This document shows, one piece after another, positions 24,100-29,757 of a stretch of DNA of 64,000 bases. The DNA is from an uncultured Butyricicoccus sp. GTDB lineage: Bacteria > Bacillota > Clostridia > Oscillospirales > Butyricicoccaceae. Made by a program: the position numbers and the translations under genes. How positions within the stretch are numbered: the first letter of the stretch is position 1; each line of letters begins with the position of its first letter. The stretch lies in assembly GCA_904420185.1 (NCBI GenBank), contig CAJFUJ010000026.1:40318-104317 (forward strand), given 5' to 3'. The notes beneath the pieces were generated by a model that was given only the letters and a program-made list of their open reading frames with translations, was not told the origin of the DNA and made no database searches.

Positions 24100-24891
24100 A
24101 TGCAGCATTTGACAGTCAAGGGTCTGGTGATTCGGGAAACCGACTTTGGCGAATCGGACCGGTATATCAGCGTGCTTACCGAGCGCGGCGCCAAAATCGA
24201 GGTGCTGTGCCGGGGTGTGCGGCGGCGTGGCGGCCGGTTGACGGCGGCTGTGCGGCTGTTTTGCTGGAGTGAGCTGACCCTTTATGAAGGGCGCAATGGC
24301 AAATACACCCTGAACGATGCGTCGATTGTGCACTCGTTTTGGGGCGTGACGCGCGATATGGATACCTATGCGATGTGCTGCTACTTGGCCGAGCTGGCGG
24401 GTGTGATGACCGGCCCGGAGGAGGAGACGCCGGACATCACCCGCCTTTTTTTATATGCACTTTATGCGGTCATCGACCAAAACCGCGGGCTGGACTTGGT
24501 CAAGGCTGCCTTCGAGCTGCGGCTGATGGCCGAATGCGGCTTTGCCCCCGATTTGTCGGTGTGCGGCGCTTGCCAGCAGCCGATTGAAGGGACAGTGTAT
24601 TTTTCGGTGCGGGAAGGTGCAGTGCTGGATGCTGCCTGCTGCAAACGGCTGGGCGGAGGCGATTTCGCACCGCTGCCGGACGGCGTCTATATGGCAATGG
24701 CGCATGTCCTGCTCAGCGAGATCCCCCACGTGTTTTCCTTTGTGCTGGGCAGCGATGCGCTGCGGGTATTTGCCGGCGTATGCGAGCGGTACGCCCTGTA
24801 CTATGCCGAGCGCGGGTTCCACAGCCTGGATTTTTATCATCAACTCAAAACAAGCGAGGCGCTGGGCGCTTCGCCTACAAATCGCAAATAA
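24100..24891 (+). CDS. recO: DNA repair protein RecO
   Basis: MQHLTVKGLVIRETDFGESDRYISVLTERGAKIEVLCRGVRR and CGACQQP Cys motif; RBS GGGGAGG before ATG 24100. Confidence 0.92.
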   Translation: MQHLTVKGLVIRETDFGESDRYISVLTERGAKIEVLCRGVRRRGGRLTAAVRLFCWSELTLYEGRNGKYTLNDASIVHSFWGVTRDMDTYAMCCYLAELAGVMTGPEEETPDITRLFLYALYAVIDQNRGLDLVKAAFELRLMAECGFAPDLSVCGACQQPIEGTVYFSVREGAVLDAACCKRLGGGDFAPLPDGVYMAMAHVLLSEIPHVFSFVLGSDALRVFAGVCERYALYYAERGFHSLDFYHQLKTSEALGASPTNRK

Positions 24892-24911
24892 AGAATAATG
24901 GAAAGGGATCT

Positions 24912-27302
24912 ATGAATCGATTAGGAGAAAAATCACTGCGGACGCTAGAATATTTTACCGTGCTGGAGATGCTGGCTGGGCAAGCATCCAGTGAGCGCGG
25001 GCAGGAGCTGTGCCGCGCGTTGCGTCCGGTGTCCGACCGTGAAGAAGCTGCGTTGTGGCTTCAACAGACCTCGGACGCCAAAAATCATATGACCCGGCAG
25101 GGAAGCCCCCCGCTGGGCGGTATCCGCAATGTGCTGGGCGCGCTGGGTCGAGCGGATATCAGCGGCGTGCTCAATTTGAAAGAGCTACTGGATGTGGCGT
25201 CACTGTTGCAGTGCGCGCGGCTGATGCAGGGATACTTTGCCGAGCAGGAGGAAAAGACCGCGCTCACGCCCATTTACCGGCTGTTGACCGGCGACCGCGC
25301 ACTCGAAGAGCGTATCACCACATGCATCGTCAGCGAGGACGAGATCGCTGACGGTGCGAGCCCGGAGCTGGCCTCCATCCGGCGGCAGATCCGGCAGGTT
25401 TCGGGAAAGGTGCGCGAAACCCTCAGCCGCCTGATCTCGGGTGAGCGGTCTAAATATTTGCAGGAAACCATCATCACCCAGCGCAATGGGCGGTATGTGG
25501 TGCCGGTCAAGGCCGAGCACCGCGGCGACGTGCCCGGCCTGGTGCACGACACCTCATCCTCGGGCGCGACCGTGTTTGTCGAGCCAGCGGCTGTGGTGGA
25601 GATCAACAACCAAATCAAGGTGCTCGAGGGCAAGGAGCAAATGGAGATCGACCGCATCCTGGCCGAGCTGTCCAGCGAGGTGGCCGCGCACGCCGAGGGC
25701 ATCCGCCAGGACTACGAACAGCTGACTGCGTTGGACTTTATCTTTGCCCGGGCCAAATTGTCCTTCCAGATGAATGCGGCCGCCCCGCATTTCCGGAAAG
25801 AGGGTTACGGCGTGCGCTTGCAGCGTGCCCGCCATCCGCTGCTCGACCCCAAAAAGGCGGTACCCATCGACATCGCCATCGGTATTGACTATGATACACT
25901 GGTCATCACCGGCCCCAACACCGGCGGTAAGACCGTGTCGCTTAAGACCCTAGGGCTGTTGAGCCTGATGGCCGCATCAGGGCTGCACATCCCGGCCAGC
26001 GAGCTGAGCGAGGTGTGCGTGTTCGAAAACGTCTATGCGGATATTGGCGACGAGCAGAGCATCGAGCAGAGTTTGTCTACCTTTTCTTCGCACATGAAGA
26101 CCATCGTGGGCATGATGGAAAAATGCGCGCGCGGCGACCTGGTGCTGTTTGACGAGCTGGGCGCAGGCACCGACCCGGTCGAAGGAGCGGCGCTGGCGGT
26201 GTCGGTCATCTCGTATGCCCGGCAGATGGGCGCTTTTGTGGCGGCTACCACCCACTATTCCGAGCTTAAGACCTTTGCGCTGACCACCGAGGGCGTGGAA
26301 AATGCCTCCTGCGAATTCGACGTGGGGACGCTGCGGCCGACCTACCGGCTGCTGACTGGCATCCCGGGCAAATCCAACGCCTTTGCCATTGCAGCTCGCT
26401 TGGGACTGCAGCCGGCTATTTTGGAGCGCGCCCGTGAACAGCTGTCCAGCGAGAGCACCCGCTTTGAGGATGTGCTCGCCCAGCTGGAAAAGGAGCGCAA
26501 GCAGCTGGAAAAATATAAGGCAGAGGCCGAACGCTTGCGTTCGGCGGCCCAGAGCGAGCGCGACAAGGCCGAAAACCTGCGCGACAAATCCGAGGATGAA
26601 GCCGACCGCATCGTCGAAAACGCCCGGCTCAAGGCCGACCGCATCCTCAAAGACGCCCGCATGACGGCCGAAACCGTTTTTACCGAGTTGGACGAGCTAA
26701 AGAAAAAGGCCAGCGAAAGCGTAGCCGACCAAAACCTAGCGGCGGCAAAAGCGGCACTGCGCGGGGTCATCACCCAGACCGAAACCGAACTGCGCCAAAA
26801 GAAGGAAAAACGGTCGGTCGCGCCCGAGCAGCAGCGTCCGATCAAGCGGGGCGACGAGGTACAGCTGCTCAACGTGTCCAACATCGGCGCCACCGTCCTG
26901 ACCGACCCGGACAAGGACGGAAACATCCAGGTGCAGGCCGGTATCATGAAGATGAATGTCAAGGTCAGCGAGGTCCGGTTGGTACCCAAAGCACAAAAAC
27001 CCAAGTCCAAAACCTTCCGCGCGGGTGCGGGCGGCGTCAAAGAGTTGCGCTTGGCCACCACACCCAGCGAGATCGACGTGCGCGGCATGAGTGCAGAGGA
27101 AGCCATTTTAGAGGTGGACCAGTTTATTTCCAATTCTCTGCTGTCCGGCCTGCCATCGGTGCGCATTATCCACGGCAAAGGGACCGGCGTGCTGCGCGCC
27201 GCCATTCAGCAGCACCTCAAGCCCAACAAGCGGATCAAGCTTGTGCGCAATGGCGTATACGGCGAGGGAGAAAATGGCGTGACAGTTGTGGAATTTAAAT
27301 AA
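24912..27302 (+). CDS. mutS2: endonuclease MutS2
   Basis: ITGPNTGGKTVSLKTLGLLSLMAASGLHIPA, DELGAGTDPVEGAALAV, C-terminal Smr domain IDVRGMSAEEA ... IIHGKGTGVLR. Confidence 0.95.
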   Translation: MNRLGEKSLRTLEYFTVLEMLAGQASSERGQELCRALRPVSDREEAALWLQQTSDAKNHMTRQGSPPLGGIRNVLGALGRADISGVLNLKELLDVASLLQCARLMQGYFAEQEEKTALTPIYRLLTGDRALEERITTCIVSEDEIADGASPELASIRRQIRQVSGKVRETLSRLISGERSKYLQETIITQRNGRYVVPVKAEHRGDVPGLVHDTSSSGATVFVEPAAVVEINNQIKVLEGKEQMEIDRILAELSSEVAAHAEGIRQDYEQLTALDFIFARAKLSFQMNAAAPHFRKEGYGVRLQRARHPLLDPKKAVPIDIAIGIDYDTLVITGPNTGGKTVSLKTLGLLSLMAASGLHIPASELSEVCVFENVYADIGDEQSIEQSLSTFSSHMKTIVGMMEKCARGDLVLFDELGAGTDPVEGAALAVSVISYARQMGAFVAATTHYSELKTFALTTEGVENASCEFDVGTLRPTYRLLTGIPGKSNAFAIAARLGLQPAILERAREQLSSESTRFEDVLAQLEKERKQLEKYKAEAERLRSAAQSERDKAENLRDKSEDEADRIVENARLKADRILKDARMTAETVFTELDELKKKASESVADQNLAAAKAALRGVITQTETELRQKKEKRSVAPEQQRPIKRGDEVQLLNVSNIGATVLTDPDKDGNIQVQAGIMKMNVKVSEVRLVPKAQKPKSKTFRAGAGGVKELRLATTPSEIDVRGMSAEEAILEVDQFISNSLLSGLPSVRIIHGKGTGVLRAAIQQHLKPNKRIKLVRNGVYGEGENGVTVVEFK

Positions 27303-27427: not shown

Positions 27428-27456
27428 TTGACGAAAGGATAAAAAAACGGTATTCT
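27428..27456 (+). promoter_or_regulatory. candidate sigma-70 promoter of the HPr-like gene
   Basis: TTGACG (27428-27433), 17-bp spacer, TATTCT (27451-27456). Confidence 0.55.
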
Positions 27457-27536: not shown

Positions 27537-27800
27537 ATGTATTCGAAAGAGGTACAGGTTACAAACCAGGTAGGTCTGTATGCAAGGCCGGCAACGTTTT
27601 TCATTCAGAAAGCAAATGAGTTCAAGAGCACCATCCTCGTCGAGAAGGAGGAGCGCCGCGTAAATGCGAAGAGCCTGCTGGGTATCCTTTCCCTTGGCAT
27701 TACCAAGGGTACGACGATCAACCTGATCGCAGATGGTCCGGATGAAGAAGATGCGGTAAACGCGCTGGTTGAGCTGATCACCTCGAATTTCACCGACTGA
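27537..27800 (+). CDS. HPr-family protein lacking His15 (Crh-like)
   Basis: 87 aa; GLYARPAT in place of GLHARPAT; KSLLGILSLGI Ser46 region conserved. Residue 15 = Tyr (codon TAT 27579-27581), residue 46 = Ser (AGC 27672-27674). Confidence 0.9.
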   Translation: MYSKEVQVTNQVGLYARPATFFIQKANEFKSTILVEKEERRVNAKSLLGILSLGITKGTTINLIADGPDEEDAVNALVELITSNFTD

Positions 27801-27820
27801 GTTTCTTTTTTGTACGTTTG

Positions 27821-27847
27821 GAGCACCGCAAAACGCGGTGCTCTTTC
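27821..27847 (+). terminator. terminator-like hairpin after the HPr-like gene
   Basis: GAGCACCGC-AAAAC-GCGGTGCTC then TTT; weak T tract. Confidence 0.5.
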
Positions 27848-27876
27848 TGTATACCAAGTGCAAGGAGGCAAAAGCT

Positions 27877-29757
27877 GTGCGTGAACGGTTTGACGAACTG
27901 AAAGAAAAGGTGCGGGCACTGCCATATGAGCCCGGAGTCTACATTATGAAAAACCGCGCGGGTGGCGTCATCTATGTCGGCAAGGCCAAAGCACTCAAAA
28001 ACCGCGTGTCCCAATATTTCCAAAGTGACGCACGGCACAGCCCTAAAACCCGCAAAATGATCGCCCAGATTTGGGATTTTGACATCATCGTGACCGAATC
28101 GGAATTTGAAGCGTTGGTGCTAGAAAATTCGATGATCAAAAAATATAAACCCAAGTACAATATCTTGTTAAAAGATGACAAGGGCTATCCCTACATCAAG
28201 GTCACAACCTCCAAGCCCTATCCGGCCTTTTCTATCGTGTCCAAGCCGCAGGCCGACGCAGACCGGTACTTTGGCCCTTATCCCAGCCGGCGGGCTGCCG
28301 GGCGAGCCATCGACACCATCTGCGAAACCCTAAAGCTCAAGACCTGCCGCCGGGTTTTTCCGCGCGATATCGGGAAGGAGCGGCCCTGCTTAAACCAGCA
28401 TTTGGGCCGGTGTATCGCCCCGTGCACAGGGAATGTGCCGCCTGAAGAATATGCCGCGCTGGTCAGTGAGGCCATCGCGCTGCTGGAGGGCGATTATAAG
28501 CGCCTAACGCGTACGTTGGAAGCGCGGATGCTGGAGGCGTCCGAGCAGATGCAGTTTGAACGCGCCGCCCTGCTGCGCGACCGGATGCGCGCGGTGGAAG
28601 CCCTGGGCGAAAAGCAAAAGGTGGTTGCCGGCTCGTTCGCTGACCTAGATGCACTGGCTTTTGTGCAGGGCCAGACCAAGGGATGTGTGGTGGTGCTGCA
28701 CTATTTAGGTGGTGCGTTGCAGGACAAGGAGTATACGCTGATCGACGGCGCAGCTAGAGAGGATGTGGGTGAGGTGCTAGGCGCCTTCCTCAAGCAGTAT
28801 TATTCGCTGCGCAAAGTGGTCCCCAAGGTGGTGCTGCTCAGCGACAGCATCGAGGATATGCCGGCTGTGGCCGAGTTTTTGTCAGCAATTGCCGGATGTA
28901 AGGTCGAACTGGCGGTACCGCAGCGCGGCAAGCGGCACGATTTGACCCGGCTGGCAGCCAAAAATGCGTCTGAAGAGATCGCCCGCATGGAAACCGGACA
29001 GGAACGGCGGCTCAAATCGCTGGAGCTGCTGCAAGGTATGATCGGGCTGGACCGGCCGCCCGAGATCCTGGAAAGCTACGATATCTCCAACTTTGCGGGC
29101 GCGGATACTGTGGGCTCGATGGTGGTGTTTGAGAATGCGCAGCCCAAACGGAGCCGGTACCGCCGGTTCCAGATTGCATGTGCGGCCGATGGGCAAAACG
29201 ACTACGCTGCCATGGCCGAAATGCTTACAAGGCGGTTGCAGCGCTGGAAGGACGGCGACGAGAAATTTTGTCCGCTGCCCGATGTGTTCCTCATTGACGG
29301 TGGCTTGGGGCATGTGCGCACCGCCCAAGGTGTGCTGGACGCCTTTGGTGTGACCACCCCCTGTTTTGGGATGGTCAAAGACGATCACCACCGCACACGC
29401 GGCTTGGTCGCGCCCGATGGGCGGGAGTTCGGCATTTCGACCATGCCGGCCGTATTTGCACTCATCGGACGCATCCAGGAGGAAACCCATCGCTTTGCCA
29501 TTACCTACAACCGGTCGCTGGGTGCCAAACGGATGCGTGGCTCGACGCTCGATAAAATTCCCGGTGTGGGCGACAAGCGCCGCGGTGAGCTGCTGCGGCA
29601 TTTTAAAACCATAGACGCCATCAAACATGCTTCGGTTGAAGAGCTGCGGCGGGTGACGCCGCTGAACACCGCGTACGCCATCTATGACTTCTTCCACGGC
29701 AAAGAGGACGGGCAAGAATCAAGCGCGGCCCGGGAAAGGAAAATAAGATGCGAGTAA
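27877..29757 (+). CDS. uvrC: excinuclease ABC subunit C
   Basis: LPYEPGVYIMKNRAGGVIYVGKAKALKNRVSQYF GIY-YIG domain; DGGLGHVRTAQGVLDAFG; KIPGVGDKRRGELLRHF. GTG 27877 with AAGGAGG upstream. Confidence 0.95.
   Translation: MRERFDELKEKVRALPYEPGVYIMKNRAGGVIYVGKAKALKNRVSQYFQSDARHSPKTRKMIAQIWDFDIIVTESEFEALVLENSMIKKYKPKYNILLKDDKGYPYIKVTTSKPYPAFSIVSKPQADADRYFGPYPSRRAAGRAIDTICETLKLKTCRRVFPRDIGKERPCLNQHLGRCIAPCTGNVPPEEYAALVSEAIALLEGDYKRLTRTLEARMLEASEQMQFERAALLRDRMRAVEALGEKQKVVAGSFADLDALAFVQGQTKGCVVVLHYLGGALQDKEYTLIDGAAREDVGEVLGAFLKQYYSLRKVVPKVVLLSDSIEDMPAVAEFLSAIAGCKVELAVPQRGKRHDLTRLAAKNASEEIARMETGQERRLKSLELLQGMIGLDRPPEILESYDISNFAGADTVGSMVVFENAQPKRSRYRRFQIACAADGQNDYAAMAEMLTRRLQRWKDGDEKFCPLPDVFLIDGGLGHVRTAQGVLDAFGVTTPCFGMVKDDHHRTRGLVAPDGREFGISTMPAVFALIGRIQEETHRFAITYNRSLGAKRMRGSTLDKIPGVGDKRRGELLRHFKTIDAIKHASVEELRRVTPLNTAYAIYDFFHGKEDGQESSAARERKIRCE

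Follow-up and report, generated by a model that had tools for sequence, protein, structure and literature searches.

An HPr gene without His15 at the mutS2–uvrC locus

HPr is the textbook case of a protein in which two phosphorylation sites compete, and the HPr gene found at 27537–27800 (+ strand) of the window, the whole stretch of 64,000 nucleotides analysed here, encodes an HPr in which one of the two is missing. As the original prediction had read from the DNA, codon 15 (27579–27581, + strand) is TAT, encoding Tyr in the context GLYARPAT in place of the His phosphorylated by enzyme I (EI), and codon 46 (27672–27674, + strand) is AGC, encoding the Ser that is the expected target of HPrK/P, in the context NAKSLLGILSLGI. 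The open reading frame of 87 codons starts with ATG, and the 87-residue product also has Arg17 and the 43–52 segment NAKSLLGILS. It matches the HPr profile (PF00381; 105.2 bits against a cut-off of 23; E-value, 1.8e-30), and its AlphaFold2 model (pLDDT, 95.3) has the HPr fold, closest in the structure comparison to Thermoanaerobacter tengcongensis HPr (PDB ID: 3le1; TM-score, 0.97); the protein thus belongs to the HPr family by both profile and fold. In the model, residue 15 directly precedes the helix 16–26, and Ser46 directly precedes the helix 47–52. With Tyr15, the protein lacks the EI-phosphorylated His by which a PTS phosphocarrier is defined, and it has the sequence features of an HPrK/P substrate, namely Ser46 in the conserved 43–52 segment and an hprK gene in the same genome. 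In an order-wide sample, codon 15 does not start with C in 43 of the 43 genomes of the family Butyricicoccaceae (all Tyr), against 9 of the 351 others; Tyr15 is therefore not a sequencing slip. Comparison with the nearest genera of the family gave dN of 0.000–0.041 and dS from 0.37 up to saturation, a pattern of purifying selection by which a pseudogene was rejected.

The gene forms its own transcription unit between mutS2 (24780–27302, + strand, as the listed open reading frame, the true start being probably further in) and uvrC (27838–29757, + strand, as listed), the conserved upstream and downstream neighbours. A sigma-70-type promoter (TTGACG-17-TATTCT; 27428–27456, + strand) precedes it, and an intrinsic terminator hairpin of 10 bp (27820–27844, + strand) follows it. 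Neither element is clearly above chance in this single sequence, and the claim of a stand-alone gene with its own promoter holds because a promoter of the TTGACGAA...TATNCT type upstream and a terminator downstream of hpr recur in most of the family relatives read, among which the flanks otherwise differ. No hprK is adjacent to the Tyr15 gene in the flanks read. Shortly upstream of the start codon, another ATG (27529; GCGATGAGGAAATG) is out of frame in the window and in frame in some relatives, e.g., at locus L154; the GGAGCGATG stretch is conserved.

Reciprocal residues in the paralogs of the family

The assembly that contains the window (2.1 Mb) is 83% complete, and a further HPr could therefore be missing from it. 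Nevertheless, the second HPr, hprK, and ptsI that the original prediction had proposed to look for are all present. The second HPr (locus L001) has the residues reversed, with His15 and Arg46; hprK (C40:92368–92877) encodes both domains with intact motifs (GDSGVGKS, LIADDAV, and ELRGIGIVDVR); and EI contains all three domains with the active-site motif GGRTSHSAI. As this genome holds a Tyr15/Ser46 and a His15/Arg46 protein, the two functions of a bifunctional HPr sit on two proteins.

The named near-identical matches of this genome are Butyricicoccus, Agathobaculum, and Intestinibacillus. We then read the family (Butyricicoccaceae according to the named matches; 87 genomes), in which EI is found in 53 and HPrK in 79 genomes. 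In the genera devoid of EI, HPr was found in 26 of the 31 genomes, exactly one in each and always with Tyr15 and Ser46, and HPrK in 28 of the 31. The remaining genera have the Tyr15/Ser46 gene together with at least one HPr that combines His15 with Arg, Lys, or Gln at position 46, and the few single-HPr exceptions among them are incomplete assemblies. Among the listed family matches, from which the weakest HPr matches were left out, 78 copies are Tyr15/Ser46 (77 without one locus fetched twice), none is Tyr15 with another residue at 46, 69 are His15 without Ser46, and two, both from genome G082, are His15/Ser46, one having extra residues inserted close to position 46; these counts describe a pattern rather than 148 independent events, and Fisher's p is just a guide because the copies are related. 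Every Ser46 HPr read at the mutS2–uvrC locus in the family has Tyr15, which answers in the affirmative whether this residue defines a clade: it defines the family. Conservation follows a reciprocal pattern: the 44 unique Tyr15 sequences of the family, those of EI-less genera included, share NAKSLLG and GLYARPAT without variation, whereas the 68 unique His15 proteins all have GxHARPAG but have diverged in the 43–52 segment. In this family, the two jobs of one HPr have been divided between a carrier and a protein that serves as the serine switch. HPr genes number up to 7–8 per genome in G039, G034, and G054; where Tyr15 is lacking, the copies read from the first two genomes have His15 and Lys46 without exception.

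Replacement in place and its recurrence in the order

HPrs that have Ser46, whichever of His, Tyr, Arg, or Cys occupies position 15, adjoin mutS2 and/or uvrC at nearly all loci, and in our gene-order reading no His15 copy without Ser46 adjoins either gene. A tree was built with columns 15 and 46 removed; in this tree of 85 columns, in which many inner forks are unresolved, all sampled Oscillospirales Ser46 HPrs form one clade (support, 96/98) that leaves Bacillus subtilis Crh outside, and the His15 HPrs without Ser46 form a separate clade (100/98). Sequences of HPr, Crh, CcpA, and MgsA from B. subtilis served as references; the letters used for Crh match the PDB alignment. On the basis of the tree and gene order, His15 was replaced in place; horizontal gain of a Bacillus Crh, with which both tree and synteny disagree, was rejected. 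By the same two criteria, the Tyr15 HPr is not an ortholog of Bacillus Crh but arose at the HPr locus in parallel to it.

The same position has changed repeatedly in the order. The nine genomes outside the family in which codon 15 does not start with C comprise eight with Tyr and one with Thr in an extra copy. Among the matches listed, which leave out about 90 of the matching genomes, codons starting with C encode mostly His, and Arg15 occurs in three groups. Arg15/Ser46 HPrs are found in f3 (G088, G112, G130, G147, G162, G174, G186, G199, and G212), in f19 g67 (G158, G208, G346, and G376), and in f13 g45 (G120 and G227); loci L261–L263 likewise encode HPrs of this type. EI is absent from the genomes of these three groups that hold Arg15/Ser46 HPrs, and no LacI protein was found in the f3 and f19 Arg15 genomes tested. 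In two f13 genomes, Cys15 goes with an altered 16–18 loop but an unchanged NAKSLLGVL; Tyr15 is combined with Lys17–Ala18 in two f15 genomes. At loci L236 and L237 (G420 and G365, respectively), Cys15-Thr-Glu-Ser replaces HARP and the Ser46 segment is intact; these two EI-bearing genomes also carry a separate His15/Gln46 HPr, and this coexistence is a second, independent split of both functions.

Ten changes of residue 15 are needed on the tree, the Gln of Crh counted, and at the same syntenic locus elsewhere in the order His15 has been replaced by Tyr, Arg, and Cys several times. EI is absent from all the genomes found in which the sole full-length HPr has lost His15, and the EI-bearing genomes with a His15-less HPr (G325, G365, G420, and G372) hold another HPr with His15. 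EI is missing in 262 of the 394 genomes of the order-wide sample, many of which keep a His15/Ser46 HPr. Outside the family, His15 seems to be retained in the majority of genomes without EI; the loss of EI thus allows the residue to change without compelling it to, and in the EI-less genomes that retain it His15 may have a role outside the PTS.

Comparison with known HPr and Crh proteins

With Bacillus and Geobacillus Crh (PDB IDs: 1zvv and 1mu4) the window HPr shares the HPr fold, the lack of His15, and Ser46 within NAKS, and by sequence it is nearer Crh than B. subtilis HPr (74 versus about 65 bits). It is Crh-like also in that residue 15 is not His, Ser46 is kept, and a separate His15 HPr is encoded in the genome. 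However, Crh has Gln15 instead of Tyr15, the score of the window HPr (101.5 bits) is below the cut-off (123) of NF010354/PRK13782, which we take to be the Crh model, and the Oscillospirales clade described above excludes Crh. Whereas crh adjoins whiA–glmR (PMC10714963) in the order glmR–whiA–crh, the order in the window is mutS2–hpr–uvrC. The partner of Crh is CcpA, but no CcpA was identified for the window HPr. The designation as Crh-type therefore stands as an analogy, that of a carrier-defective signalling protein, and fails as membership, on account of the tree, the synteny, and the NF010354 cut-off.

The nearest precedent is the Crh-like protein Ccel_0806 of Clostridium cellulolyticum, a bacterium that seems to have neither an HPr ortholog nor a cognate EII and in which CcpA homologs were proposed as partners (PMC3656788); a Crh-like clostridial HPr was thus known before. 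The C. cellulolyticum phosphocarrier in PDB entry 7ff5 is probably this protein. Like the window HPr, it is clostridial, with His15 replaced and NAKSLLG kept, whereas 7ff5 aligns as GLDSKAA, with Asp15 and an altered 16–18 loop, and no paired His15/Arg46 carrier such as L001 is described in C. cellulolyticum. Canonical Firmicutes HPrs (3le1, ~49% identical to the window HPr, and that of B. subtilis) have the fold and Ser46 in common with it but possess His15, the defining PTS residue. The L001-type paralogs with Arg46 or Lys46 are of the same family and occur in the same genomes as the Tyr15 HPr, but belong to the separate clade, keep His15, have lost Ser46, and are located at other loci. A literature search of limited scope found no description of a Tyr15 HPr in Butyricicoccaceae.

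Proposed function and candidate partners

Altogether, the window gene is most probably the original main HPr gene of the lineage, still at the mutS2–uvrC locus, and its His15 would have given way to Tyr in the family's ancestor or close to it. The Tyr15 HPr would no longer carry PTS phosphate, but HPrK/P would still act on it at Ser46. This enzyme senses fructose-1,6-bisphosphate, ATP, and Pi in other Firmicutes and would toggle the protein between the Ser46-phosphorylated and unmodified forms, one of which may dock on a regulatory partner. Where EI exists, the carrier work would fall to the separate His15 HPrs with Arg or Lys at position 46, which, because of that residue, would not be switchable by HPrK. 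Since Tyr is unfit for His-phosphate transfer and since Ser46 with its neighbouring residues has been retained together with HPrK, an HPrK/P-switched regulator is the most likely function, as judged by analogy with the biochemistry of HPr and Crh (described in PMC9631020). The loss of PTS carriage, foreseen in the original prediction, agrees with both the residues and the genome checks. The reading as a carrier-defective, HPrK-switched protein is well supported, and we regard it as highly probable that the original HPr, having lost His15, has been kept as an HPrK/P-switched regulator, with separate His15 carriers where EI exists.

As for the partner, the CcpA-type regulation that had been predicted fared poorly. 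A classical Crh-type corepressor would bind, as Ser46-phosphorylated HPr, to a CcpA-like LacI protein and repress catabolic genes; Ser46 and HPrK are available for this, and the window genome encodes LacI-family proteins (16 TIGR01481 and 7 PF00356 matches). However, the CcpA cut-off is reached in none of the 87 family genomes (best, 246 versus 442 bits), and YDIGAVAMRLL, a CcpA segment that we take to be a marker of HPr binding, is kept in none of the alignable LacI-family proteins of the window genome. Moreover, PF00356 is absent in 16 of the 16 EI-less family genomes tested and in most of the other Tyr15 or Arg15 genomes tested, in which HPr is still conserved. A corepressor is thus an unlikely role, and regulation through CcpA probably does not apply, at any rate in the relatives that lack EI. 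In those tested, EI and the whole LacI family are gone and the switch is kept, so that the partner is probably a protein other than CcpA. We tentatively suggest, with slightly less than even confidence, that the EI-less, LacI-less members and several other lineages operate a free-standing HPrK/P–HPr serine switch that involves neither PTS nor CcpA, in which HPr would persist solely as a regulator under metabolite control and Tyr15 would be preserved because it belongs to the docking face.

Methylglyoxal synthase would be such a partner, if the unphosphorylated HPr inhibited the enzyme and HPrK relieved the inhibition, as established for Crh and MgsA in B. subtilis (described in PMC9631020). 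A gene for an MGS-like protein is present in 36 of the 37 genomes checked, LacI-less and EI-less ones included, but being nearly universal in the set it does not discriminate, and most EI-less matches are below the MgsA cut-off. Furthermore, where B. subtilis MgsA has GGD, which we assume to contain the catalytic Asp, the proteins read from the window genome and its family have GGE, presumably an altered or lost catalytic Asp. MgsA accordingly stays just a lead, and a doubtful one. The GGE-type proteins are encoded at L362 (2483–2842, − strand) and also at L360, L361, L363, L365, and L370.

Alternatively, Tyr15 could itself be phosphorylated or make a new contact, with chemistry or binding beyond that of Gln or His. 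The invariance of GLYARPAT in the family, where some other His15-less lineages let residues 16–18 decay, and the more than one origin of Tyr are consistent with such a role, but one C-to-T substitution suffices to turn His into Tyr, and Arg and Cys serve at position 15 elsewhere. We know of no kinase for Tyr15 and consider the role improbable. Finally, although many relatives lack EI, a decaying, functionless relic of a lost PTS carrier is scarcely conceivable, being already refuted by the selection pattern (dN of 0.000–0.041 at high dS in near genera), the invariant NAKSLLG, and the recurring promoter and terminator.

Within this gut family, to which Butyricicoccus and Agathobaculum belong, evolution has cleanly separated the two sites of HPr by reciprocal loss of residues, and the loss of His15 has been repeated several times in the order. 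The genomes without EI and LacI proteins offer a natural background in which effects of HPrK and HPr are not attributable to the PTS or CcpA, and the non-CcpA roles of Crh-like proteins are thereby directly testable.
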